DNA of 64,000 bases from contig NZ_JACCFH010000001.1 of assembly GCF_013410775.1 (NCBI RefSeq), positions 3,348,001 to 3,412,000 on the forward strand. The letters run 5' to 3'. The translations under genes and the position numbers were made by a program. Source of the stretch: Sphaerotilus montanus (GTDB lineage: Bacteria > Pseudomonadota > Gammaproteobacteria > Burkholderiales > Burkholderiaceae_C). Positions within the stretch are counted from its first letter, which is position 1; each line of letters starts with the position of its first letter. Positions 1-29,607 of this stretch are shown piece by piece. The notes beneath the pieces are model-generated. The model saw only the letters and a list, made by a program, of their open reading frames with translations, was not told where the DNA came from and searched no databases.

Positions 1-1512
1 CACGACAACGCCGGCGTGGCCAGCGCGGCGGCGTTCCACCCGACGGGGGCCTTCCTGTTCGTCGCGCTGGAGGCCAGCCGCCACATCGCAGTGGTCGATC
101 CGGTCGGGCGGCGCGAGCTGTTCCGCTTCGACACGGGCCGCGCGCCGCAGGGCGTGGCGGTGTCGGCGGACGGGTTCACGCTCTATGTCCACCACTTCAT
201 GGACCGCAGCATCGGCGTGTTCGACCTGCGCCCGCTGCTGCAGCGCGGGGAAGCGGTGGTGCCCGCCACGGCGACGCTGGCGGCCACGGCCAGCGAAGTG
301 CTGCCGGCGGCGGTGCTGCGCGGCAAGCAGCTGTTCTACGACGCCCGCGACCCGCGGCTGGCGCGCGACGGCTACATGAGCTGCGCCGCCTGCCACCACG
401 ACGGTGGCCACGACGGCCGCACCTGGGACTTCACCGGCCAGGGCGAGGGCCTGCGCAACACCATCAGCCTGCGCGGACGGGCCGGTGCACAGGGCCGGCT
501 GCACTGGAGCGCCAACTTCGACGAGGTGCAGGACTTCGAGGGCCAGATCCGCGGCCTGCAACAGGGCACCGGCCTGATGAGCGACGCCCAGTTCGCCACC
601 GGCACGCGCAGCCAGCCGCTGGGCGATGCCAAGGCCGGCGTCAGCACCGACCTGGACGCGCTGGCGGCCTATGTCGCCTCGCTGAGCACCCACGCGCCGA
701 CGCCGTACCGGCAGGCCGATGGCACGCTGACCCCCGACGCGGTGGCGGGCCGCGCGGTGTTCGCCGGCAAGTGCGCGAGCTGCCACGGCGGCGCCGATTT
801 CACCGACAGCGCCTCCAGTCCGTTGCGCAACGTCGGCACGCTGAAAGCCTCCAGCGGCCAGCGCCTCGGCGCCACGCTGACGGGGCTGGACACCCCGACG
901 CTGCGGGATGTCTGGTCAACCGCACCTTACCTGCACGATGGCGCGGCCGCCACCATCGAGGCCGCCGTGCAGGCGCACACCACGCTGTCGCCCGCGCTCA
1001 CCGCCGCCGAGCTGGCGCAGGTCAGCGCCTATGTGCGCCAGATCGGCCGCGAGGAACCCACGGCGCCGACCCCGACCGGCGCCGGCACCGGCCTGCGCGG
1101 CGAGTACTTTGCCGGCACCGCGCTGGCCGGCACGCCGCTGCGCACCACCGCCGAGGCGGTCGACTTCAACTGGGACCGGGGCGCGCCGGCCGCGGGGGTG
1201 CCGGTCGACAACTTCTCGGTGCGCTGGAGCGGCTGGGTCGAGGCGCCGGAGACGGGCACCGTGGTGTTCCAGACGCGCTCGGACGACGGCGTGCGTGTCT
1301 GGGTCAATGGCGTGCAGGTCATCAGCAACTGGACCGACCACGGCGTGACCGACAACACCAGCGCCGCGGTCAGCATGGTGGCCGGACAGCGGCTGCGCAT
1401 CGTCGTCGAATACTACGAGCGCGGCGGTCGTGCCGAGATCGCGCTGCGCTGGCGCTGGCCGGCCGCGAGCGTGTTCACCGCGGTGCCTGCGAACCGGCTG
1501 TACCTGCCGTGA
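1..1512 (+). CDS. Exported di-heme c-type cytochrome with beta-propeller remnant and C-terminal PA14 domain (5' partial)
   Basis: The frame is open from base 1, so the true start lies outside the window. The first ~75 residues read like the last blades of a YncE/lactonase-type beta-propeller (repeated VDP, VAVS and LYV strands). Next comes a MauG/cytochrome c peroxidase-like part with two CxxCH haem sites, CAACH at 382-396 and CASCH at 772-786, each in a CHxxG-type context. From about base 1090 to the stop there is a PA14-like domain (GLRGEYF, then DDGVRVWVNG). The family suggests a periplasmic or surface redox protein with a carbohydrate- or protein-binding tail. The substrate is unknown. 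The stop overlaps the GTG start of the next cytochrome gene by 4 bp, so the two are probably co-translated. Confidence 0.8.
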   Translation, partial: HDNAGVASAAAFHPTGAFLFVALEASRHIAVVDPVGRRELFRFDTGRAPQGVAVSADGFTLYVHHFMDRSIGVFDLRPLLQRGEAVVPATATLAATASEVLPAAVLRGKQLFYDARDPRLARDGYMSCAACHHDGGHDGRTWDFTGQGEGLRNTISLRGRAGAQGRLHWSANFDEVQDFEGQIRGLQQGTGLMSDAQFATGTRSQPLGDAKAGVSTDLDALAAYVASLSTHAPTPYRQADGTLTPDAVAGRAVFAGKCASCHGGADFTDSASSPLRNVGTLKASSGQRLGATLTGLDTPTLRDVWSTAPYLHDGAAATIEAAVQAHTTLSPALTAAELAQVSAYVRQIGREEPTAPTPTGAGTGLRGEYFAGTALAGTPLRTTAEAVDFNWDRGAPAAGVPVDNFSVRWSGWVEAPETGTVVFQTRSDDGVRVWVNGVQVISNWTDHGVTDNTSAAVSMVAGQRLRIVVEYYERGGRAEIALRWRWPAASVFTAVPANRLYLP

Positions 1513-2901: not shown

Positions 2902-5900
2902 ATGTCCTCGCACGCCACACGCGCTCACCGTTTTTCCACCTTCCATGCGCTGGTTCGATGGTTGGCCGTGCTGCTGCTGGGCAGCGTGATGGCCTCGGTG
3001 GCGCAGGCCGCGTCGTTCAACTGGTCTGCTGCCAGCTGCATCACGGCAGGCAACTGCACCACGGTGGGCAGCATCACCCGCTTCAGCAACGCGGTCGTCG
3101 GCGTCAATGCGCGCGACATCCTGCTGGAGGTGATCGAGACCACCAATGGCGCATCCGTCTACGCGGCGGCCATTGGCACGGTGAACGGTGGGGCGTCCTA
3201 CATCGACGGCAAGGTGGGCACGAACCTGGCACCGAGCGCCGTGTCGCAGGTGCGCTTCCGGCTGCGCTTCGTCAATCCGGGCACCACGACCGACAACCCG
3301 CTGCCGGGTCCGGTCTATTTCACCAGCCTTGACACCGACGGCATGCAGAGTGCTGTCTCGGGCGGCTACCGCGAGCGCTTCGAGATCATCACGCCGACGT
3401 CCACCGTCGCGATCGGTCCGCAGCTGGAAAGCACCTCGGCCCTGGTGCCCGGCGGCGTCGCCTATTCGCCGATCATCTGCGCGAACGGCACCACGGTCGG
3501 CTGCAACGACTCGAGCTACGGCGGGACCGGCAACTACGTCTTCTACCCGCTGCTGAGCACCACGCCCAACGTCGCCGCGACGGCGGTCTACACCGGCATG
3601 GTCGGCAACATCGACTTCGCGTTCGGTCTGGAGGTCTCGGCCGCGGGCCCGGGCAGCGTGCAGGAAAGCTTCCGCCAGTACGGCATCGCCGGTGGTGTGC
3701 CGGATGCCGACATGGTGCCGACACTGATCCAGTGCACGCCCGATCCGGTGGCCGCTGGCGCAGCGACGACCTGCGCGCTGACCTGCACCAACAACGGCCC
3801 GGACGTGGCCATCAATCCCTCCTGCGATTTCACCGGCACGCTGCCCGCCGGCGCGGTGCGCAGTGCCGGCTGCGGCACGCTGACCGGCCTGCTCACCAGC
3901 GGCAGCAGCCGTGCCTGCAGCATCACCTTCACGCCCACGGTCGGCGGCACGCTCAACCTGACCGGCGGGACGGGTGCGGCCAACGACACCAACGGCGGTG
4001 CGGTGGTGACCGCCGGCAACAACCCGAGCACCGGCTCGGTCGTCGTGACCGCCCCGACCACCGCGGACATGAGCCCGGTGTTCGGCAACCTGCCCGCGCT
4101 GCTCAGCCCGGGGGCCAGCCATTCCGGTCTGACCCTGACCTGCTCGAACGCGGTCGGCGGTGCAGCCGCGCTGGCGGCGACCTGTGTGCCGACCGCTTCG
4201 GCCGGTGTGGTCAGTGCAGTGAACTGCCTGCCGGTTTCCGGCAGCCCTGTGGCGGCCGGTGCCAGCATCGCCTGCACCTTCAGCTACACCGCACCGGGCA
4301 ACGCCGGCGGCAGCGACACGGCCGACACGGCGGTGGTGTTCACGGGCACCACCGGCGCCACCAACGACGCGGTGGCCACCAACAACACGGCCACCGCGCC
4401 GGTGCCGCTGCTCGACGCCGTCGACGAATCCACCACCACGCCCTACGGCACCGCCGCCTTGCTGGGCGTGCTGACCAACGACACCCGCGGCGCGACGCCG
4501 GCCAGCTTCGGCAGCGTGTCGCTGACCGTGCTCGTGGCGCCCACGCCCGGCTCCACGATCGATCCCTCCAGTGGCGCCTTCAGCACCACCGCGGCGACAC
4601 TGCCCGGCACCTACACGGTCACCTACCAGCTCTGCGCCAACCCGGCGCTGACACCGGCCGTCTGCGACACCGCCACCGCGACCATCGTCGTCGGCCCCGG
4701 CGCGGACATGGTGCCCACCTTCGGCGCACTGCCGGGCGCCGTGCACCCCGGCCAGCTCTACACCGGCCTGACGCTCAATTGCACCAACGTCGCCGGCGGT
4801 GCCAGCGCGGCCACCGCCCGCGGCACGCTCTGCCAGCCGCAGGCCAGCGTCGGCACGGTCAGCAACGTGGTCTGCACGCCGCTGGTCGGCGCCGATGTCG
4901 CCAGCGGCGCGGTGCAGACCTGCAGCTTCTCCTACCAGGCCCCGGGCACGCAGGGCGGCACCGACGAGCCGACCACCGCCGTGACCTTCACCGGCACGAC
5001 CGGCGCGGCCAACGACCTCAACGGCGGCCTGACCACCGGCGGCAACAACCTGGTCACGGCCGCCGCCGTGGTGATCGACGCGCTGGACGACACGGCCACC
5101 CGCGCGGGCGGCCTGACCGGCCAGACCTCGCCGCTCGACCCCAACGACCAGATCCCCACGGGCAGCGTCTACACCCTGCGCGCTGGCGGCACCTGCGCCA
5201 ATGCCAGCGTGTCCACCACCGGCCTGGCCACCTACGACGTGCCGGCTGCCGGCACCTGCACCGTGCCCTACCAGGTCTGTGCCCCGGCGCCGAACGCGAC
5301 CGCCTGCGACACCGCGACGCTCACCGTCACCGCCACCAGCGCCGACATGGCCGCGGCCTTCAGCGGCCTGCCGACGGTGGTCCACCCGGGCCAGACGCTC
5401 ACCGGCCTCGGCCTGAGCTGCACCAACGTCGCTGCCACGGGGGCGGCCACGGCAGCGACCTGTGCGCCGACGGTCAGTGCCGGCACCGTCTCCGCCCTGA
5501 GCTGCAGCCCGCCGGTCGGTGGTGCGGTGGCGGCGGGTGCCGCGATCGCCTGCACCTTCAGCTACACGGCCCCCGGCGTGCAGGGCGGGGCGGACGAGCC
5601 CGTGCTCTCGGTCGTCTTCACCGGCACGACCAGCGCCAGCAACGACAGCAACGCCGCCAACAACGTGGTCCAGTCGCCGGCCACCGTGATCGACGCCGTC
5701 GACGACCGCATCGGCCAGCCCGGCGGCAGCACCGGCCGCACCACGCCGCTGGCCCCCAACGACCAGGTCCCGACCGGCAGCAGCTTCACCGGCACCGGCG
5801 GCACCTGCGCCCGCGCCAGCGTCGGCAGCACCGGCATCGCCACCTACGACGTGCCGGCCAGCGGCAACTGCACCGTCACCTACCAGGTCTGCGCCCCGGC

Positions 5901-15891: not shown

Positions 15892-15986
15892 GGCGGTGCC
15901 GATGTCGTGGCGGGCGACCGCTGCGGTGTCCAGCAGGGTGCGGATCTGCAATTCCGGCGCCATTGCCGGGCAGAATCCCGCGCACC

Positions 15987-17540
15987 ATGCTCGATGACCT
16001 CAAAAAGACCCTCTGGGCCACCGCCGACAAGCTGCGCGCCAACATGGACGCGGCGGAGTACAAGCACCTCGTGCTTGGCCTCATCTTCGTCAAGTACGTC
16101 TCCGACACCTTCCAGGCCAAGCACGCGGAATTGACGCTGCGGCTGGCGGATCCGGACGACGCGTATTTCTACGGCGAGGCCGCGCCCGAAGACATCGCCG
16201 CCGAACTCGAAGACCGCGACTACTACCGCGAGGCCAATGTGTTCTGGGTGCCGGAGGCGGCGCGCTGGGAGGCCTTGCGTGCGGCGGCCAAGCAGCCTGA
16301 CATCGGCAAGCGCATCGACGAGGCGCTGGCGCTGATCGAGGTCGAGAACACCAGGCTGAAGGGCATCCTCGACAAGCGTTATGCCCGGGCGCAGTTGCCG
16401 GACGGGAAGCTGGGCGAGCTGGTCGATCTGGTGTCCACGATCGGGTTCGGGGCGACGGCGGGCGAGGCGCGGGATGTGCTCGGGCAGGTCTACGAATACT
16501 TCCTCGGCCTGTTCGCCAACGCCGAGGGCAAGCGGGGCGGCCAGTTCTACACGCCGCGCAGCATCGTCAAGACGCTGGTCGCCGTGCTCGCGCCGCACCA
16601 CGGCAAGGTGTACGACCCGTGCTGCGGCTCGGGTGGCATGTTCGTGCAGAGCGAGGAGTTCATCGAGGCGCACGGCGGCAAGGTGGGCGACGTGGCGATC
16701 TTCGGGCAGGAGGCCAACCCGACGACGTGGCGGCTGGCGGCGATGAACCTGGCGATCCGCGGCATCGACTTCAACCTCGGGCGGGAGCCGGCCGACACCT
16801 TCTCGCGCAACCAGTTCCCGGACCTGCGCGCTGACTTCATCCTGGCGAACCCGCCGTTCAACATCAGCGACTGGTGGCACGCGAGCCTGATGGGCGACGC
16901 GCGCTGGCAGTACGGCGACCCGCCGGCCGGCAACGCCAACACTGCGTGGCTGCAGCACATGCTCCACCACTTGGCGCCGAACGGCCGGGCGGGCATCGTG
17001 CTGGCGAACGGGTCGATGAGTTCGAGCCAGAACAGCGAGGGGCAGATCCGCGCGGCGATGGTCGAGGCGGACGTGGTGGAGGTGATGGTGGCGCTGCCGG
17101 GGCAGTTGTTCTTCAACACGCAGATCCCGGCGTGTCTGTGGTTCCTGGCCAAGTCCAAGCGGGCGCGGCGGGGCGAGGTGCTGTTCATCGATGCGCGCAA
17201 GCTGGCGACGATGATCAGCCGCGTGCAGTGCGAGCTGACCGACGCGGTGATCGAGCGCATCGCTGGGACCGTGGCGGCGTGGCGCGGGGAGTCTGGCGCG
17301 GGGGTGTATGCCGACGTGGCGGGATATTGCCGCAGCGTGCCGCTGGCCGAGATCGCCGAACACGGGCATGTGCTGACGCCGGGGCGCTATGTGGGCGCGG
17401 AGGCGGTGGAGGACGACGACGAGGACTTCGAGGCCAAGATGCGGGCGCTGACGGAGAAGCTCGGGGAGCAGATGGCGAAGGGGGCGGAGCTGGATCTGGT
17501 GATTCGCGCCAAGCTGGGGGGGCTGGGATATGAGTTCTGA
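15987..17540 (+). CDS. hsdM: Type I restriction-modification system, N6-adenine methyltransferase subunit
   Basis: 517 residues, starting at [17 protein letters not shown], the usual start of this HsdM subfamily. A start 24 bp upstream is also open. The helical N-terminal domain includes [18 protein letters not shown]. The methylase domain carries [10 protein letters not shown], the S-adenosylmethionine motif DPCCGSGGM (about base 16615) and the catalytic NPPF (about 16849). It methylates adenine in the HsdS target sequence and joins HsdS and HsdR in the restriction complex. It overlaps hsdS by 11 bp. Its GC content matches the host, unlike hsdS. Confidence 0.95.
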
Positions 17541-18891
17541 GTGGCGGAGCACCACGCTTGGTGCGATATGTGACATACAAGGAGGAGCGATTCAGACCGG
17601 ACCTTTTGGCAGTCAACTTCACACGTCTGACTATAAAGAGGTTGGTATTCCTGTTGTGATGCCGACCAATATTGGTGACAGTGGCATCATTGAAGATGGG
17701 ATAGCGAGAATTGGGCAAATAGATGTTGATCGATTGAGCCAGCACGTACTTCGATTAGGTGACATTGTTTTCAGCCGGCGTGGAGATGTCACCAAAAATG
17801 CACTGATTCGGAATCGTGAAGTCGGCTGGTTTTGTGGAACGGGGTGCCTGAAAGTTCGGTTGGGAACTGAGTCAATTGCCAGTGCAAAATTTATCTCGCA
17901 CTGCTTGCGATTGCCTGATACTAAAGACTGGTTGGTGCGACATGCTGTTGGTGCGACCATGCCGAACCTTAATACTGGCATTCTTTCTGCTGTTCCAATT
18001 CACCTGCCTCCGCTGAAAGATCAGCGTGAAATGGCGGGAATTCTTGATGCGCTCGACTACCGCATTGCCCTACTGCGCGAAACCAACGCTACCCTTGAAT
18101 CCATCGCCCAAGCGTTGTTCAAGTCGTGGTTCGTCGATTTTGATCCCGTGTATGCAAAGCAGCAAGGCATCGCGCCTGCGGGGATGGACGACGCCACGGC
18201 GGCGTTTTTTCCGGATGGGTTCGAGGAGTCGGCGTTGGGGTTGGTGCCGAAAGGGTGGCTGGTACATCGACTGGGAGATGTTGTTATGCGGATAACAAAA
18301 GGCACAACACCGACCACATTAAAAAGGCCATTTGTTGAGGCAGGCATCAATTTTGTCAAAGCTGAATCCATGACGGATGATGGTGGATTTATTGTAGAAA
18401 AGTTTGCCTTTATTGATCGTGAAACGCACGATTTGCTGGGGCGATCTCAACTGAAGGCAGGCGATGTCTTGATTTCAATTGCCGGAACCATCGGACGAGT
18501 TGCTATCATGCCCGAGGATTTTTTGCCTGCCAATACTAATCAGGCCGTAGCCTTAATACGACCGATGCAAACCCGTTTTCCGAGTGGATTGATAAGTCGA
18601 TTCCTGCAAAGAGACGAATCGAGGCAACTGATGAGTGAACGAGTAGTTCAGGCCGTGCAGGCTAATTTGAGTTTGGGCACATTGTCAGACCTAAAAATTG
18701 CACTGCCGTCTGCAGAAATAACTTGCCAGCTTTACCGGACGGGTATGGAACAAGTCGATGCAGGCAAAGCCCTGAACCATCAAAAAATTCGCACCCTTGC
18801 CACCCTGCGCGACACCCTGCTCCCGCGCCTGATCTCCGGCCAACTGCGCCTGCCCGAAGCCGAGGAGCAGATCGAAGCGGCCATCGCCTGA
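17530..18891 (+). CDS. hsdS: Type I restriction-modification system, specificity subunit
   Basis: 453 residues, overlapping hsdM by 11 bp. Architecture is TRD1 (about residues 5-150), a conserved helical spacer (~155-210, containing [17 protein letters not shown]), TRD2 (~235-400) and a second conserved spacer ([18 protein letters not shown]) at the C-terminus. The two target-recognition domains are much more AT-rich than the surrounding DNA, while the spacers and C-terminus return to host composition. That pattern is typical of recognition-domain exchange by recombination. The recognition sequence cannot be read from the protein. Confidence 0.93.
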
Positions 18892-19006
18892 CACTGAAGA
18901 GGCTGTGGCACTGTGAAATGCGCCACACAGTCGAATATCTGAAGGTGCCTGCCGCTCCAGACAATCGCAGTCTTGCCATCAATACAGAAACGACAAGGGG
19001 ATGGGC

Positions 19007-22213
<3,207 letters not shown>

Positions 22214-22230
22214 AGCGGGTCTCGCCGAAG

Positions 22231-22305
22231 TGGTCCCCCCGACAGGAATCGAACCTGTATCTGGCGCTTAGGAGGCGCCCGTTCTATCCATTGAACTACG
22301 GGGAG
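22231..22305 (-). tRNA. tRNA-Arg (anticodon CCT)
   Basis: Read on the minus strand, 5' end at 22305. Acceptor CTCCCCG pairs with CGGGGGG (one U-G). The D stem is GTTC/GAAC, the anticodon stem GGCGC/GCGCC encloses loop CTCCTAA (anticodon CCT, reading AGG), and the T stem is ACAGG/CCTGT with loop TTCGATT. CCA is encoded at the 3' end (22231-22233). The first ~10 nucleotides overlap the last codons of tamB on the same strand, which is unusual. hsdR ends 17 bp from the tRNA 3' end. Confidence 0.95.
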
Positions 22306-25300
22306 GACTGCGCTGCAGGACGCGCGGTAGAGCTCGGAATTGTAGCCTGCGGCCCCCACTTCCACGTCCAGATCAGGTCCAGCGCGTTTTCCGCACCGGA
22401 TTGCGCGCGCAGCGTGAAGCGCTGGGCGGCGCGGTAGATGAGCTGCCAGGTGCCGCTGGCGGCGTTCAGGCTGCGCTCGTAGCCGACGTACCAGCGCCGG
22501 CTGATCTGCTTGCCGAGGGTGACCACCGTCTCGCGCGTGTCGCCGTCGCCGGCCTGCCGCACCGAGAGCTGGTCGAGGCCGATGCGCTCGACCAGGCTCG
22601 GGCTGTCGCTCTCGCCGGCGATGAGCGCGTAGGCGGCGCGCTGCAGCAGCGCGAGGTCGGTGCGGCCCAGGCCGTCGGAGGCGCGGCCGAGGATGAGCCA
22701 GGACAGGCGGTCGGTGTCGGTCATGCTCGGCTCGCTGAACAGGCGGATGCGCGGGTTCTGGGCCGTGCCCGTGACGGTGACACCGACCCGCACGTCCTCC
22801 AGGTCCGGGCGGATCGCCTCGACGTCCAGCCGCGGGTTGTCGGCCACGCCGGTGAAGGCGATGACCGAGCGCTCGATGCGCAGCTTCTGGCCGTAGGCCG
22901 CGTAGGTGCCGTCCACCGCGCGGATGTTGCCGTGGATCGCCAGCCGGTTGGCCGGGCTGGTCAGGCGCAGCTCGCCGGCCAGCCGGGTGTTCAGGCCGCG
23001 CCCGCGCAGCACGAAGGCGTCGCCCAGATCGGCCCGCAGGTCGAGCGTGGTGGTGCGGCGGCTGGCGGGGCCGGTCTCGCGGGTCCGGGGCTCGCCGGTG
23101 CCGCGGTCGACATCCACATCGTCGGCCAGCGCGGGCGCGTCGCTCTGCGTGAAGTCGAAGCGGCCTTCGTCGGCGCGCAGCCGGCCCTTGAGCTGGGTGC
23201 TCTGGGCGTCGAGCACCAGATCGGATTCGCCGCTGACGACGAGCTTGCGGTCGACCCGCTGCAGCGCGGCGAAGCGGTCGGCCGTGACCTTCACCGCCAG
23301 GCGCGGCGCAGCCCCCAGCGTGGCCTCGCCGCGGGCGACCAGCGTGCCGGCCCCGGCGCGCACGCTGAAGGTGTCGATGCGGGCCGTGTCGCCGGCCAGC
23401 TGCACCTTGAGCTGGGCGTCGGTCCAGTCCACGCCCTGCAGCGTGTTGCGCACGGCGATCTGGCTGCCGTTCAGCTCGCCGGCGAAGGCCGGCGCGCCGA
23501 AGGTGCCGCCGACGCGGGCTTCGGTGGCGAGCTGGCCCGACAGGCGCCAGCCCGCCGGCAGCCAGCGGCCCCAGTTGCCGAGCTGGGCGATCTGCAGATC
23601 GATCTGGCCGCCCACCGCCGCGTCCGCCGCGGGCCAGAGGGCGTGGCGGTCGGTGCGCACGGTCTGCTGGCCGTTCAGGCTGCCGAGGTTGCCGCCCGAG
23701 ACCAGCTGGGTCAGGCGCCAGACGCCGTCGGCCGCGTCGAGCCGCAGCCGCAGGTCGGCGAGGCCGAGGCGGCGCGGGCCGGTGCCAAGCTCCGCGTCCT
23801 CGACGCTGAGATCGCCGCTGTCACGTTGCAGCGTGACGGCAGCGGTGAACTGCTCGGGGGTGGACTGCAGCTCGATGCGTCCGCCGAGCGTGAGGTCACC
23901 GCCCCAGCCGAAGTCGGGCTGGGCGCGCGCCAGCAGCGGGGCCACCCGCAGCGGTGCGAGCTGGGCGCGCAGGCTCAGACCCGCCGCCGCACCGCTCTGC
24001 CAGTCGAGGTGGTCGATCAGCAGTTGCACGTCCATCAGCGACAGCCGGCTGGCACCGAGCTTCACGGCCAGACCGCTGCTGTCCTGCACGATGGCCAGGG
24101 TGGCCGGCTCCAGCTGCAGCAGCGGCGGCGGGACGGCGGCCGTGACCGGACCGCCGGCCGGCACCACCGCGACGTCCCGAAGCTCCAGCTGCCCGACCCG
24201 GCCGTTCCAGCGCAGGCCGGCTTCCCGGTGCGCCAGCGACGGCCCGATCTCTTCGGCCAGGCCGCCGTTCAGCGACAGCAGCGCCTGCAGCTTGCGGGCC
24301 GGGAGGTCGGTGCGGGCGGGCACGTCGATCTGGCTGCGCAGCTGCAGCTGGTGGCTGGCGGCCGTGCCCTGGGTGCGCAGCGTCAGGCCGCTCAGGTTCT
24401 GGCCACCCGCGCGCAGGGTGCCGACCGTGGCGCTGACGTCGATCGGGTCGGCGGGAAAGGTGCCGGCCTTCCAGTGCAGGTCGAGGGCCTGCAGATCGGA
24501 CGCGCCCAGGTGCAGCTGGCCGCTGCGCAGCTGGCCGGTGCTGCGCACGCGGGGCCAGCGGCCGGCGAGGTCGAGCTGGCCTTCGGTGTCGCCGCTGATC
24601 CGGGCGGGCGAGCCGGCGAGCTTCATCCAGGGATTCAGGCGTTCGGGGGCGCTGCTTTTCCACTGGAGGGTCCAGCGGTCCTCGCTGCCGGACGGGGCGA
24701 GGTCGCCGGTCAGGTGCAGATCGGTGGCGTCGGCGGCGCCGACCGGGGCGCCGGCGGTGGCCTTCAGGTCGAGATTCCAGCGGGGCGCGCCGGTGGTGCC
24801 CGCACCTGCGCGGGTCTGCAACTTGAGCTGGCCCGCCAGCGGCACACCGGCGATCAGGCTGGGGTCGAGGTGCAGGTCGGCGTGGCCCGTGATCTCGGCC
24901 AGTCCCGCCAGCCCCGTGGCCAGCGGCACGGGGATGCGCAGGTCGGTGTCGAGCCTGCCGTCCAGGCGGTGGACGCTGCGCGGCCCCGGAGCCGCCTCCT
25001 GGGCCGCGCCCGGCCACCACACGCCGGGGTCGAAGGCCTCCAGATCGCCCTGGAGGCGCACCTGCCAGTGTGCGTCGGCCTGTTCGGCGTGGCCGCTGGC
25101 CTCCAGCCGGGCGGTGCCGCTGCGGGCCTGGAGCTGTTCCAGGTCGATGCGTTGCGGCGTGGCCTGGGCCTGCAGCAGCAGCCGGACTTCGGGCAGTCCG
25201 GCGCCGACGAGCAGGCCGCGCAGGTCGGTGTGCAGCGTGATGCGCCGGCTGGCCGCGCTGTTCTCGCCCAGCGACTGGCCATAGGTCAGCGTGAGCGGGC

Positions 25301-26552
25301 CGCTGACCTGCACGGCGGGTGCCCGCGGATCGAGCCGCGCCGGGTGCAGGTCCTGCCAGGTGCTGCTGAGGGCCGTGTCCAGGCGGCGCTGGGCGCCGGT
25401 GCCGCTGAGCGTCCAGCGGCCGCTGCCGAGCACGGTGCCGGCGTCGTCGGTGCCGTCGTTCAGGTGGATGCGCAGGGTGTCGAGCGTGCCGGTGTCCGGG
25501 TTGCGCAGGTCGCCGCTGGCGGTGAGCTGGACGGTCTCGACAGGCACCAGGTGCTGCGTCCAGGGGCCGGGCCGCAGATTCTGCAGATCGACCTGCACCT
25601 GCAGGCGCTGCTGGGCCGTGCCGGTGCGGGTGCGGTTGTCGAGCAGGGCGTCGATCTGTCCGGACAGCGCCGTGGTGGGCAGGCCGCTGGCGAAGGGGGC
25701 GAGGTCGAGCGCCTGCAGCCGGGCCTGCAGGTGGCTCAGGGGCTGGCGCTGGGCGGGCCGGACCTCGGCCTGCACTTCCAGCGACTGGCCGCGCGCGACC
25801 ATGCGCGTGTCGACCGCGATCTGCTGCAGCGGTCCGTGGGCGCGCAGATCGACGCGCCAGTCCTGCGGCAGTCCGGCGGGCGCCGCCGTGTCCGGCGCGG
25901 CCGCTGCGCCGGGGGTCAGCACCAGCCGCGCCTCCAGCGGCATCGGCGCGTCCGCCCCCAGTGTCACCAGGCCGTGCAGCACGAGCCGGTCCCAGTGCAG
26001 CTGCAGCCCGTCCACGCGGTGCAGACCGCCACGCCCGGCCTGCAGGCTCAGCGACGCCGACAGCGCGCGCACCGGCCGATCGCGCAGCGCGTCGAGGCTC
26101 AGGCGGTCGATCCGCACCTCGCCGATCTGGACACCGAGCGGCAGGTCCAGCGCCGTCGGCAGCACGGGGGGCTGGTCGCTGGCGGACGCGCCTTGCAGGT
26201 CGAGGTGGCCGATCAGCAGCTGGGCGAGGTTCAGCACCGGCGCCTTGCCATCGGACCAGTCCAGTGCCAGCCCGCGCCAGCGCAGCTGGTCGATCTGCAG
26301 TGTTTGGCGGTCATTGAGCCGGTAGCGGAGCTGGTCGGCGTCGAAATCGCCCAGCAGCCGACCGCGCACCCCGCTGGACTGCAGGCCCGGCACCATCCCG
26401 AGCAGCCAGCGGCTGCCGGGCTCGGTGGCGAGGGCGGCGTACAGGCCGGCGCCCAGGAGGAGCAGCAGCGCGGCCAGTCCGGCGAGCACTGGCCACCAGG
26501 ACCGGTGGGCCTGCGGGGAACGGATCGGAGCGTCGGGGGTGTCGTCAGCCAT
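22296..26552 (-). CDS. tamB: Translocation and assembly module inner-membrane subunit TamB
   Basis: 1,418 residues. The start at 26552 (MADDTPDAP) lies 2 bp after the tamA stop. An N-terminal membrane anchor (SWWPVLAGLAALLLLLGAGL) is followed by the long beta-helical/groove region and the conserved C-terminal DUF490 domain, ending with the family hallmark DLIWTWKWG-like strand. After that strand it carries an extra ~14-residue tail because the natural stop has moved downstream. The TAG at 22296-22298 lies inside the tRNA-Arg gene. TamB bridges the inner membrane and TamA, helping place outer-membrane proteins and move phospholipids. It is the last protein gene of the VWA-tamA-tamB operon. Confidence 0.93.
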   Translation of the reverse strand: MADDTPDAPIRSPQAHRSWWPVLAGLAALLLLLGAGLYAALATEPGSRWLLGMVPGLQSSGVRGRLLGDFDADQLRYRLNDRQTLQIDQLRWRGLALDWSDGKAPVLNLAQLLIGHLDLQGASASDQPPVLPTALDLPLGVQIGEVRIDRLSLDALRDRPVRALSASLSLQAGRGGLHRVDGLQLHWDRLVLHGLVTLGADAPMPLEARLVLTPGAAAAPDTAAPAGLPQDWRVDLRAHGPLQQIAVDTRMVARGQSLEVQAEVRPAQRQPLSHLQARLQALDLAPFASGLPTTALSGQIDALLDNRTRTGTAQQRLQVQVDLQNLRPGPWTQHLVPVETVQLTASGDLRNPDTGTLDTLRIHLNDGTDDAGTVLGSGRWTLSGTGAQRRLDTALSSTWQDLHPARLDPRAPAVQVSGPLTLTYGQSLGENSAASRRITLHTDLRGLLVGAGLPEVRLLLQAQATPQRIDLEQLQARSGTARLEASGHAEQADAHWQVRLQGDLEAFDPGVWWPGAAQEAAPGPRSVHRLDGRLDTDLRIPVPLATGLAGLAEITGHADLHLDPSLIAGVPLAGQLKLQTRAGAGTTGAPRWNLDLKATAGAPVGAADATDLHLTGDLAPSGSEDRWTLQWKSSAPERLNPWMKLAGSPARISGDTEGQLDLAGRWPRVRSTGQLRSGQLHLGASDLQALDLHWKAGTFPADPIDVSATVGTLRAGGQNLSGLTLRTQGTAASHQLQLRSQIDVPARTDLPARKLQALLSLNGGLAEEIGPSLAHREAGLRWNGRVGQLELRDVAVVPAGGPVTAAVPPPLLQLEPATLAIVQDSSGLAVKLGASRLSLMDVQLLIDHLDWQSGAAAGLSLRAQLAPLRVAPLLARAQPDFGWGGDLTLGGRIELQSTPEQFTAAVTLQRDSGDLSVEDAELGTGPRRLGLADLRLRLDAADGVWRLTQLVSGGNLGSLNGQQTVRTDRHALWPAADAAVGGQIDLQIAQLGNWGRWLPAGWRLSGQLATEARVGGTFGAPAFAGELNGSQIAVRNTLQGVDWTDAQLKVQLAGDTARIDTFSVRAGAGTLVARGEATLGAAPRLAVKVTADRFAALQRVDRKLVVSGESDLVLDAQSTQLKGRLRADEGRFDFTQSDAPALADDVDVDRGTGEPRTRETGPASRRTTTLDLRADLGDAFVLRGRGLNTRLAGELRLTSPANRLAIHGNIRAVDGTYAAYGQKLRIERSVIAFTGVADNPRLDVEAIRPDLEDVRVGVTVTGTAQNPRIRLFSEPSMTDTDRLSWLILGRASDGLGRTDLALLQRAAYALIAGESDSPSLVERIGLDQLSVRQAGDGDTRETVVTLGKQISRRWYVGYERSLNAASGTWQLIYRAAQRFTLRAQSGAENALDLIWTWKWGPQATIPSSTARPAAQSSP

Positions 26553-26554
26553 CG

Positions 26555-28429
26555 TCAGAAGGTGATGCCCACGCTGAAATGCAGGCGCACCTTGCGCACC
26601 TGCTGCCCGTAGGCGAGGTCCAGGCGCAGCGCGCCGACGGGGCTGCGCCAGCGCAGGCCGACGCCGTAGCCGAGGGCGGCCTTGTAGGAGGGCCAGTCCG
26701 GCGCGGCGTTGCCGGCGTCGATGAAGGTGGCGCCCCACAGTGCGGGCATCCGGGCCAGGATCGGCCGGGCCAGCTCGACGCTGCCGACGGCCGTGACCCG
26801 CCCGCCGACCGCCGTGCCGGCCGCGTTGCTCGGGCCGAGGCTCTGGTAGGCGTAGCCGCGCACCGAGTCATCGCCGCCGGTGCGGAACAGCAGCGAGTAG
26901 GGCACCGCCACATCCGTCGCCGACAGCACCTGCCCGATCTGCAGCCGGCTGGTGCTGTACCAGTTCTGGCCGAGCGTGGCGTAGTGGGTCAGCCGGCCGT
27001 TGAGGCGGCCGAAGACGCCGCTGCGCTGCGCCGTGGTGGTGAACGAGCGGCCCAGCGCCGTGTCCAGCGACAGGCTCACGCCCTTCGTCGGCAGCAGCGG
27101 GTGGTCGAGCTGGCGCCAGATCCACTGGTAGTTGCCGGAGAGGGCCGAGGTGTCGTCCACGGTCAGGCCGTTGTCGAGCTGGCGGGTGAGGGAGCGCTGC
27201 CACTCCAGGTAGTACAGGCGCTCCAGCCGCTCGTCGTCCTTGCTGCGGCCGATCCGGGCGCGCTGCGAGGTGACCTCCAGCCCGCTGGCGTCGGTCTGGC
27301 CGATCGAGGCCGAAATGAGATTGCGATACGGGCCGGGCAGGGGGTGCGAGGTGAGGTCGATCGACGCCTGCTGGTCGGTGCGGCCCAGTTGCAGCTTGCT
27401 CTTGGCCTGCCAGGGAAAATCGAAGACACGCTGGTGCAGGTGTTCGAGCGTGACCCGCGGCCCTGTGTTGTCGGAGATGCCCAGACCGAGCGTGGCCTGC
27501 TGCAGCGAGCGCTCGCGCACTTTGACGACCACCGGCATGGCGTCTGCCAGCGCCGGGTCCGGCTCCATCTCGATCGCGACGCTGTCGAACAGCGCCGACT
27601 TGACCAGCCGGTCCTGGTAGTCGAGCAGCGCCTGCTCGCGCAGCGGCTGCCCGGCGGAGAAGGTCTGCAGCGCCTGCACTGCCTCGGCATCGACGTGGTC
27701 CAGCCCGGTGACCTGCACCGCGCCGAAGCGGTAGAGCGGGCCGCTGTCGGCGACCAGGAACAGCGCCGCACGGTCCTCGACGGCGCGCACCTGCGCCACG
27801 GTGCCGCTCCAGCCGGCGGTGGCGTAGCCCTCGGCGCGCAGCAGCGCGAGCACCTCGCCCTTGGCGCTGCTCCAGCGGTCCTGCGTGTAGGCCTCGCCGG
27901 CCGGCAGCGACCAGCGGCTCCGCACCCGATCGACCAGCGCGACCGCGGCGGGCTCGCCCGCTTCGGCGGCGACCGACAGGGGACCTTCGAATTCCACGCG
28001 GGCCTGGCTGACGCGCGCGCGGGGGCCTGGTTCGACCAGCAGCTTCAGCGCGATGACACTGCCGTTGTCGCGCGCCTGGGTGCTGACGCTGGCGTTGAAG
28101 TAGCCCTCGGTTTCCAGCAGCGCGCGGGCCTGGGCGGGGGCGGCCTGCCGCAGCCGCATCAGCTCGCCGCGCGGGACCCGGGCGGTGTCCGGCGTGGCGA
28201 GGTAGCGCGAGAGGTCGAGGTAGCGCGCCAGCAGCGTGCGCAGCGCGGGTGGCGCGGCGATGTCGAGTGTCCAGGTGACATCGCGGGTGTCGGCGTCGTC
28301 TTCGGCTGCGGAGGCCGCCTGCGCCACTGGCGGCGCCGCGACCTGGGCCATGGCGGGTGCGGTGGCAGCAGCCTGAACGACCAGAGCCGCCAGCAGCAGC
28401 GGTGGGTGTCTTCTCCTGCGTCCGGTCAT
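26555..28429 (-). CDS. tamA: Translocation and assembly module outer-membrane subunit TamA (Omp85 family)
   Basis: 624 residues from an ATG that overlaps the VWA gene's stop by 4 bp. The signal peptide ends near PAMAQ. POTRA-like segments occupy about residues 50-290 (ALLETEGYFNASVS, VLALLRAEGYATAGW, LYRFGAVQVTGLDHV). A C-terminal Omp85 barrel includes VRGYAYQSLGP, the lid-loop VRGY motif, and FIDAGNA. It ends in F, as outer-membrane barrels usually do. It works with TamB in outer-membrane assembly. I find no reason to call it BamA: no BamA context, three rather than five POTRAs, and tamB follows. Confidence 0.93.
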   Translation of the reverse strand: MTGRRRRHPPLLLAALVVQAAATAPAMAQVAAPPVAQAASAAEDDADTRDVTWTLDIAAPPALRTLLARYLDLSRYLATPDTARVPRGELMRLRQAAPAQARALLETEGYFNASVSTQARDNGSVIALKLLVEPGPRARVSQARVEFEGPLSVAAEAGEPAAVALVDRVRSRWSLPAGEAYTQDRWSSAKGEVLALLRAEGYATAGWSGTVAQVRAVEDRAALFLVADSGPLYRFGAVQVTGLDHVDAEAVQALQTFSAGQPLREQALLDYQDRLVKSALFDSVAIEMEPDPALADAMPVVVKVRERSLQQATLGLGISDNTGPRVTLEHLHQRVFDFPWQAKSKLQLGRTDQQASIDLTSHPLPGPYRNLISASIGQTDASGLEVTSQRARIGRSKDDERLERLYYLEWQRSLTRQLDNGLTVDDTSALSGNYQWIWRQLDHPLLPTKGVSLSLDTALGRSFTTTAQRSGVFGRLNGRLTHYATLGQNWYSTSRLQIGQVLSATDVAVPYSLLFRTGGDDSVRGYAYQSLGPSNAAGTAVGGRVTAVGSVELARPILARMPALWGATFIDAGNAAPDWPSYKAALGYGVGLRWRSPVGALRLDLAYGQQVRKVRLHFSVGITF

Positions 28430-29607
28430 TTCGACAGCAGCCGCATCGCCTGTTCCAGCCCGGCCAGCGACAGCGGAAACATCCGCTGGCTCATCAGTTG
28501 CTGGATCATCGCGATGCTCTGGCGGTATTCCCAGACGCCGGGCGGCTCCGGATTGATCCAGGCGAATTTCGGGAAGGCGTGGGTCAGGCGCTGCAGCCAC
28601 TCGGCGCCGGGTTCCTCGTTGTTGTATTCGACGCTGCCGCCGCGCTGCACGATCTCGTAGGGGCTCATCGTCGCGTCGCCGATGAAGATCAGCTTGTAGT
28701 CGCGGTTGTACTTGCGGATGATGTCCCAGGTCGGGAACTTCTCGGCGTAGCGGCGGCGGTTGTTCTTCCACACGAAGTCGTAGACGCAGTTGTGGAAGTA
28801 GTAGAACTCCAGGTGCTTGAACTCGGTTTTCGCGGCGCTGAAGAGTTCTTCCACGCGGTGGATGTGCTCGTCCATCGTGCCGCCCACGTCCATCAGCAGC
28901 AGCACCTTGACCTTGTTGTGGCGCTCCGGGACCAGCTTGATGTCGAGCAGGCCGGCGTTGGCCGCGGTGCAGTGGATGGTGTCGTCCAGATCCAGCTCTT
29001 CCGCCGCCCCTTCGCGGGCGAAGCGGCGCAGGCGGCGCAGCGCGACCTTGATGTTGCGGGTGCCGAGTTCCAGGTTGTCGTCGTAGTCACGGAACGTGCG
29101 CTGGTCCCAGACCTTCACGGCGCTCTTGTTCTTGCCCGCACCGCCAATCCGGATGCCTTGGGGGTTGTAGCCGCCGTGGCCGAAGGGGCTGGTGCCGCCG
29201 GTGCCGATCCACTTGCTGCCGCCGGCGTGGCGTTCCTTCTGTTCCTCGAAGCGCTTCTTGAGCGTCTCCATCAGCTCGTCCCAGCCCATCTTCTCGATCT
29301 TCGCCTTCTCCTCGGGGCTCAGCTCCACCTCCAGCGTCTTGCGCAGCCAGTCGAGCGGCACCTCCTGCGTGAAGTCGGTCAGCATCTCCACGCCCTTGAA
29401 GTAGGCCGAGAAGGCGCGGTCGAACTTGTCGAACTGGACCTCGTCCTTGACCAGCGTGGTGCGGGCCAGGTAGTAGAACTTGTCGACCGAGGGGCCGCCG
29501 TCGTCATCGATCACGCCGGCCTGCAGGGCTTCGAGCAGGGTCAGGTACTCGCGGATCGAGACCGGCAGCTTGGCGGCCCGCAGGGTGTAGAAGAAGTCGA
29601 TCAGCAT
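28426..29607 (-). CDS. VWA-domain protein, CoxE-like
   Basis: 393 residues. The start at MLIDFFYTLR is preceded by GGAG on the minus strand. The N-terminal half is helical (KVEMLTDFTQEVPLDW and a Lys/Glu-rich stretch). A Gly-rich linker (GGTSPFGHGGYNPQG) precedes the VWA domain. The metal site reads DVGGTMD rather than the canonical DxSxS, so MIDAS metal binding may be altered. CoxE-type VWA proteins act with MoxR AAA+ ATPases in assembling or activating metalloenzyme complexes. A MoxR is encoded at 37184-38038, about 7.6 kb away. This gene is first in an operon with tamA-tamB, joined by a 4-bp overlap. Confidence 0.85.
   Translation of the reverse strand: MLIDFFYTLRAAKLPVSIREYLTLLEALQAGVIDDDGGPSVDKFYYLARTTLVKDEVQFDKFDRAFSAYFKGVEMLTDFTQEVPLDWLRKTLEVELSPEEKAKIEKMGWDELMETLKKRFEEQKERHAGGSKWIGTGGTSPFGHGGYNPQGIRIGGAGKNKSAVKVWDQRTFRDYDDNLELGTRNIKVALRRLRRFAREGAAEELDLDDTIHCTAANAGLLDIKLVPERHNKVKVLLLMDVGGTMDEHIHRVEELFSAAKTEFKHLEFYYFHNCVYDFVWKNNRRRYAEKFPTWDIIRKYNRDYKLIFIGDATMSPYEIVQRGGSVEYNNEEPGAEWLQRLTHAFPKFAWINPEPPGVWEYRQSIAMIQQLMSQRMFPLSLAGLEQAMRLLSK

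Follow-up and report, generated by a model that had tools for sequence, protein, structure and literature searches.

Results

The end of tamB lies inside a tRNA gene

The window, the whole 64,000-nt stretch of Sphaerotilus montanus DNA analysed here, carries on its minus strand tamA (26555-28771, the coordinates of the listed ORF; Omp85 and POTRA domains by Pfam), tamB (22296-26552) and, predicted by ARAGORN, a gene for tRNA-Arg(CCT) (22231-22305, with nt 1 at 22305 and CCA encoded); as tamA lies directly upstream of tamB, the three genes share one direction. The tamB frame of 1480 aa matches the TamB profile PF04357 over positions 5-381 of 381, with 188.4 bits against a cut-off of 22.4, and the last model position falls at residue 1461; this match to the C-terminal end of the profile and the adjoining tamA partner identify it as a TamB family member. 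The GTG at 26738 with which this frame opens sits within tamA, so translation probably begins at the ATG at 26552, two bases beyond the tamA stop (26557-26555), and the product then has 1418 aa.

The TAG that closes the tamB frame (22298-22296) coincides with nt 8-10 of tRNA-Arg(CCT), at the junction of the acceptor and D stems; the end of tamB and the 5' end of the tRNA gene thereby share 10 bases (22296-22305, minus strand). An earlier reading made from the sequence alone (the sequence-only reading) had proposed both this same-strand overlap of 10 bases and a tamB stop in the 5' region of the tRNA: the first is confirmed, and the second can be given its exact place at nt 8-10.

The tRNA gene is also recognised by Rfam (RF00005, 22305 to 22234 on the minus strand, 64.5 bits), its predicted fold is an intact cloverleaf (-29.1 kcal/mol), and it is single-copy, the only one with a CCT anticodon among the 59 tRNAs of the genome. 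TAG occupies nt 8-10 in 98 of the 102 copies of tRNA-Arg(CCT) in the family set (TGG in three, TCG in one), and in 40 of the 59 tRNAs of the window's genome. The fate of a frame entering tRNA-Arg(CCT) depends on its phase: one phase leads to a stop at nt 8-10 in 98 of the 102 copies, the second to one at nt 36 in all 102, and the third is open through the tRNA and the following 60 bases in 50 copies and reaches a stop at nt 43 in 29. When the leader is included in the fold (22231-22308, minus strand), leader GUCC is predicted to pair with GGAC near the 3' end, with nt 2 bulged, an extension that could affect cutting by RNase P.

On its other side the tRNA is convergent with a type I restriction-modification set, hsdM, hsdS and hsdR (15963-22213, plus strand), of which hsdR (19001-22213, plus strand; Pfam) comes to within 17 bases of the tRNA 3' end. 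BLASTN aligns the nearest relative (L016) with the window only as far as the tRNA, so the hsd flank is not common to the two. In L016 a phage integrase frame (3862-5166, plus strand) starts about 175 bases past the tRNA; its central and arm-binding domains are recognised, the catalytic domain is under the Pfam cut-off, and the end apparently lies in another frame. Because this integrase adjoins the tRNA, and because tRNA-Arg(CCT) is given as the attachment site in two rows of a Variovorax prophage table (PMC9658991), mobile elements probably insert at this gene. A search of the window for an attachment repeat, in the form of another copy of the tRNA 3' end, found none: the sequence occurs once only, with up to 3 mismatches allowed.

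A tail read from a putative promoter and leader

Beyond the conserved DLIWTWKWG the TamB frame continues for 18 codons (22299-22352, minus strand), reading through the putative tRNA promoter and leader. The sequence-only reading had assigned about 14 extra residues to this region; that they are not part of the TamB core holds, and the length is revised to 18. Third-position G+C is 11/18 in this tail against 0.92 for the whole tamB frame, and over the ten loci with an overlap it is 165/220 (0.75) in the tails, their last three codons excluded, against 1715/1845 (0.93) in the conserved parts. Most TamB proteins have no tail at all: 129 of 155 ends finish 0 or -1 residues past the conserved motif, and the other 26 carry tails of 5-54 residues, 16 of them without a tRNA overlap. 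The 12 non-overlap tails of at least 11 residues are more coding-like, with third-position G+C of 0.88 against 0.94 in the body. Among the three Sphaerotilus genomes with the overlap, the tails vary in length or sequence. The overlap tail looks like tRNA promoter and leader DNA translated as protein and closed by the TAG of the tRNA, since a -10-like box sits inside it; its weak codon bias fits this origin.

That box, TACAAT (22344-22339, minus strand; tamB codons GCT ACA ATT), marks a putative tRNA promoter and stands 33 nt ahead of tRNA nt 1. Over the 65 bases preceding tRNA-Arg(CCT) it is found exactly in 42 of the 102 copies and at 5 of 6 positions in 23 more, where mononucleotide shuffles give 0.3% and 7.5%, respectively; it is exact in 8 of the 10 overlap loci, and at the same distance (33) in the two nearest relatives of the window's locus. 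An upstream -10 box shared with relatives, as expected of a sigma-70-type promoter, is thus present. A two-hexamer consensus scan of the window locus showed no -35 box at 16-18 bases, and no conserved -35 emerged from 42 aligned upstream regions of tRNA-Arg(CCT), so it is the -10-like box that carries the putative promoter. Since this box lies upstream of the tRNA and is common in relatives, tRNA-Arg(CCT) need not depend on transcription of tamB and may have a promoter of its own.

Possible transcription across the junction and predicted loss of the stop codon

A consensus scan, whose scope does not extend to Rho-dependent ends, found no terminator-like site in 21900-22900, which makes co-transcription of tamB and the tRNA plausible. 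It also means that any tamB transcript with its stop must include the first ten tRNA bases or more, and that a transcript running on would carry an RNase P substrate and should lose the tamB stop when the tRNA is matured. Cleavage before 22305 would leave the tamB message ending two bases into the codon after CAG, stopless; removal of the stop by an RNase P cut at the tRNA 5' end, as the sequence-only reading had supposed, would indeed follow from the anatomy of the junction. With a ribosome terminating at nt 8-10, the 5' part of the tRNA would be covered, and the first round of translation could finish before the tRNA folds. The genome has a tmRNA gene, with the tag ANDSTYALAA.

The overlap is scattered among relatives

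The tamB ends come from three sets: the genus (13 genomes), 46 loci in named GTDB genomes, and a sample of the family in which 116 of 150 genomes gave a match, the other 34 being uninformative on the overlap; G055, whose match in the family was too short, is left out of the count. The 167 loci represent 155 distinct tamB ends, to which 7 read later, none with a tRNA nearby, were added, making 162. Ten of these 162 overlap tRNA-Arg(CCT), each by exactly 10 nt—those of the window's genome, two close Sphaerotilus, Rubrivivax gelatinosus, G068, G062, G050, G148, G063 and G100—and a scan for overlap at any depth showed none of the deeper overlaps that other reading frames would give. The family sample alone has the overlap in 7 of the 115 genomes read. 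A same-strand tRNA-Arg(CCT) occurs in the fetched stretch at 92 of the 155 ends, and within 200 nt, overlaps included, at 77 of them, which is about half of the 162.

Within the genus 3 of 13 genomes have the overlap; in the other 10 the tRNA is separate on the same strand in 4 (6-168 nt away), convergent in 4 (two at 42-43 nt, the others at 164 and 925 nt) and not found nearby in 2. Sister species can differ: Rubrivivax gelatinosus has the overlap, whereas tamB of R. benzoatilyticus stops 37 nt short of the tRNA. At two of the convergent loci, L007 and L008 (with ends as in L019, S. natans, and L020, S. sulfidivorans), tRNA-Arg(CCT) and its TACAAT are inverted together and face tamB at 42-43 bases, a local flip within the genus. 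In L011 (end as in L022, S. mobilis) the tRNA-Arg(CCT) near tamB (1130-1204, plus strand) seems to be a replacement copy, for its body differs in sequence and nt 8-10 read TGG.

In other families of the order none of 39 tamB ends is followed by a tRNA within the fetched stretch, and the tamB-tRNA-Arg(CCT) pair therefore looks specific to this family; the 39 comprise sets of 26 and 13, three of the 26 had fewer than 160 bases downstream, and 33 further matching other-family genomes are outside the count. The spacing of non-overlapping pairs has no significant phase effect (distance modulo 3 of 27:24:16, p 0.24), and a search of the window's genome for frames entering its other 58 tRNAs, which covered frames of at least 130 codons and not shorter genes, gave 8 distinct stretches that have no Pfam match at E 0.001 and a third-position G+C of 0.43-0.69, against 0.92 for tamB.

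Probable recurrence and a fixed depth

To place the overlap on a tree we used the 155 TamB ends with their tails removed (186 columns, quick search; 28 of 150 inner branches starred). The overlap label needs 8 changes on this tree, at least 5 of them forced by starred branches, and 6 if the count is restricted to ends that have a same-strand tRNA; support is weak in many places, and gains and losses are indistinguishable in these counts. The label is more clustered than chance would have it, only 6 of 500 shuffles being as low. One starred clade of 6 genomes includes 4 with the overlap, from four genera; in one of the remaining two the tRNA lies at a distance of 423 nt, and in the other it is convergent. 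In the genome with the distant tRNA (L186, G117), tamB has its TAG 423 bases before the tRNA, and the bases before the stop slightly resemble, by eye, the start of a tRNA, possibly a remnant after an insertion. The overlap is present in several lineages and, judged from sequence comparison, most likely reflects a recurrent stop-loss event.

We then asked what depth simple stop loss would give. Removing the stop in silico from 63 separate pairs (0-150 nt apart) in three frames yielded 146 overlaps in 189 readings, of which 56 end at nt 8-10; the expected share at this depth is 0.384 for the three frames and 14/50 (0.28) for the native frame, against 10/10 observed. With the three-frame share, the chance that all lie at nt 8-10 ranges from 0.0083 for 5 changes to 0.00047 for 8, in a test that was made post hoc and that treats the tree changes as gains. 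The result suggests that translation deeper into the single-copy tRNA is disfavoured; that an overlap of 10 nt is useful does not follow.

These comparisons modify what had been supposed of the junction from the window's sequence. Conservation of the overlap is partial: it is absent from most relatives, even within the genus, but it recurs in several lineages and in most members of a second clade. The proposal that tRNA maturation is coupled to tamB expression, or else that trans-translation is needed, survives as a possible consequence; as first put it is not supported, given the tRNA's own -10-like box and the 3 of 13 genomes. An internal tRNA promoter, or a lack of conservation, had been named as what would count against the proposal: a putative promoter and the many relatives without overlap partly answer to this, and the several lineages with it do not.

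Discussion

Most likely, tamB lost its own stop, and its frame now ends ten bases into the adjoining tRNA gene. We think it probable that the overlap is a tolerated result of such recurrent stop loss rather than an evolved switch, with the tRNA coming mainly from its own promoter and ribosome rescue handling the cut messages. This reading takes as given the overlap, its presence in several lineages, the -10-like box, a tail lacking the codon bias of its gene and the tmRNA gene, all of which are directly observed; transcription, cleavage, rescue, dispensability and tolerance at the tamB-tRNA junction we infer. In several lineages tamB would have lost its ancestral stop, and the frame would then run through the tRNA promoter and leader to the TAG at nt 8-10, a replacement stop that should be stable because tRNA structure holds these bases. 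The tRNA would be made chiefly from its own promoter, in or just past the end of tamB, and some transcripts would also extend from tamB into the tRNA. On such transcripts the first ribosome would terminate normally, later RNase P cuts would strip the stop from some tamB messages, and ribosome rescue would cope with those left stopless. The overlap may be tolerated because the last 18 residues are presumably dispensable and little TamB is likely to be needed. Against this reading stand the fixed depth at nt 8-10, which hints at selection and not mere tolerance, the four overlaps in the six-genome clade, and the lack of a recognisable -35 in the putative promoter.

Selection could enter if the overlap were a working limiter, in which RNase P removes the tamB stop, each message supports about one normal round of translation before rescue takes over, and TamB output is tied to tRNA processing. 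The overlap anatomy, the lack of a terminator-like site and the presence of tmRNA are all compatible with this, and the recurrence at a single depth in several lineages, with the low chance values calculated above, and the clade with overlap in four of six genomes speak for it; a like idea was put forward for selB-selC (PMC8124441). We nevertheless regard such a limiter as unlikely, because the tRNA has a -10-like box of its own, only 3 of 13 genomes in the genus have the overlap, 129 of 155 TamB ends have no tail of any kind, and the depth test was post hoc on tree changes that may be losses. In a variant to which we give the same doubtful standing, the first ribosome would terminate in the unfolded tRNA, RNase P would then make the message nonstop, and selection would repeatedly have fixed the overlap at nt 10, since deeper overlaps would make ribosomes unfold the single-copy tRNA.

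Selection might instead have acted on the TamB tail itself, the tRNA overlap being a by-product. Tails of 5-54 residues do occur at 26 of the 155 ends, 16 of them free of overlap, and the longer non-overlap tails are nearly body-like in third-position G+C (0.88 against 0.94); the weaker codon bias of the overlap loci (0.75 against 0.93), and tails whose length or sequence varies even within the Sphaerotilus trio of overlap genomes, make this a very improbable account. It is scarcely credible that sequencing or assembly went wrong in the extended frame and that the true stop lies earlier: the window is known from a single assembly and its two nearest overlap relatives are metagenome bins, but the same overlap is seen in 10 genomes, and in the two Sphaerotilus relatives both arms of the acceptor stem carry changes relative to the window that preserve the pairing.

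The tolerated overlap that we favour has its closest precedent, by analogy of layout, in the selB-selC (tRNA-Sec) overlaps of Alphaproteobacteria, Dyella/Luteibacter and Nitrospirae, for which a nonstop message after tRNA-Sec processing, lowering protein output, figures as a hypothesis only (PMC8124441). There, as here, the frame of a real bacterial protein gene runs on into an intact same-strand tRNA gene and gains a C-terminal extension read from it, the overlap is present or absent among near relatives, and a nonstop message is predicted. The selB frame often spans the whole tRNA-Sec, or stops at nt 46-48 (Dyella/Luteibacter), whereas neither nesting of the tRNA nor a mid-tRNA stop occurs with tamB, which in 10 of 10 overlaps stops at nt 8-10 of an ordinary tRNA-Arg. 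The selB and selC products, moreover, act in one pathway; between TamB and tRNA-Arg we know of no link. Co-transcription of a protein gene and the tRNA that follows it, as may happen at tamB, reportedly occurs in E. coli, where Mohanty and Kushner in 2008 are said to have described RNase P processing of mRNA-tRNA co-transcripts such as secG-leuU; to our knowledge secG has no stop codon inside that tRNA.

Mitochondria offer further cases in which, as is predicted for tamB, cleavage at a tRNA 5' end sets the end of the upstream message. There rps12 and tRNA-Asn of Blastocystis overlap by 7, 38 or 69 bp, the depth changing with the frame (PMC5203790), and human mitochondrial nonstop mRNAs have been studied, polyadenylation completing some of the stops (PMC9674279). 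Those are compact organelle genomes, whereas the tamB case is in a bacterial genome of 5 Mb. Our literature search, limited in collection and terms, found no report of a tamB-tRNA overlap; what appears new is that the tRNA is an ordinary one, that the membrane protein is unrelated to it, that several lineages are involved and that tRNA structure fixes the depth.

The case carries a simple rule: where TAG occupies nt 8-10, the tRNA is a ready replacement stop, in one frame out of three, for a gene upstream of it whose own stop is lost. Related species with and without the overlap are natural pairs in which to see what follows when one RNA loses its stop codon through the maturation of another, and they bear also on whether gene layout creates housekeeping clients of trans-translation.
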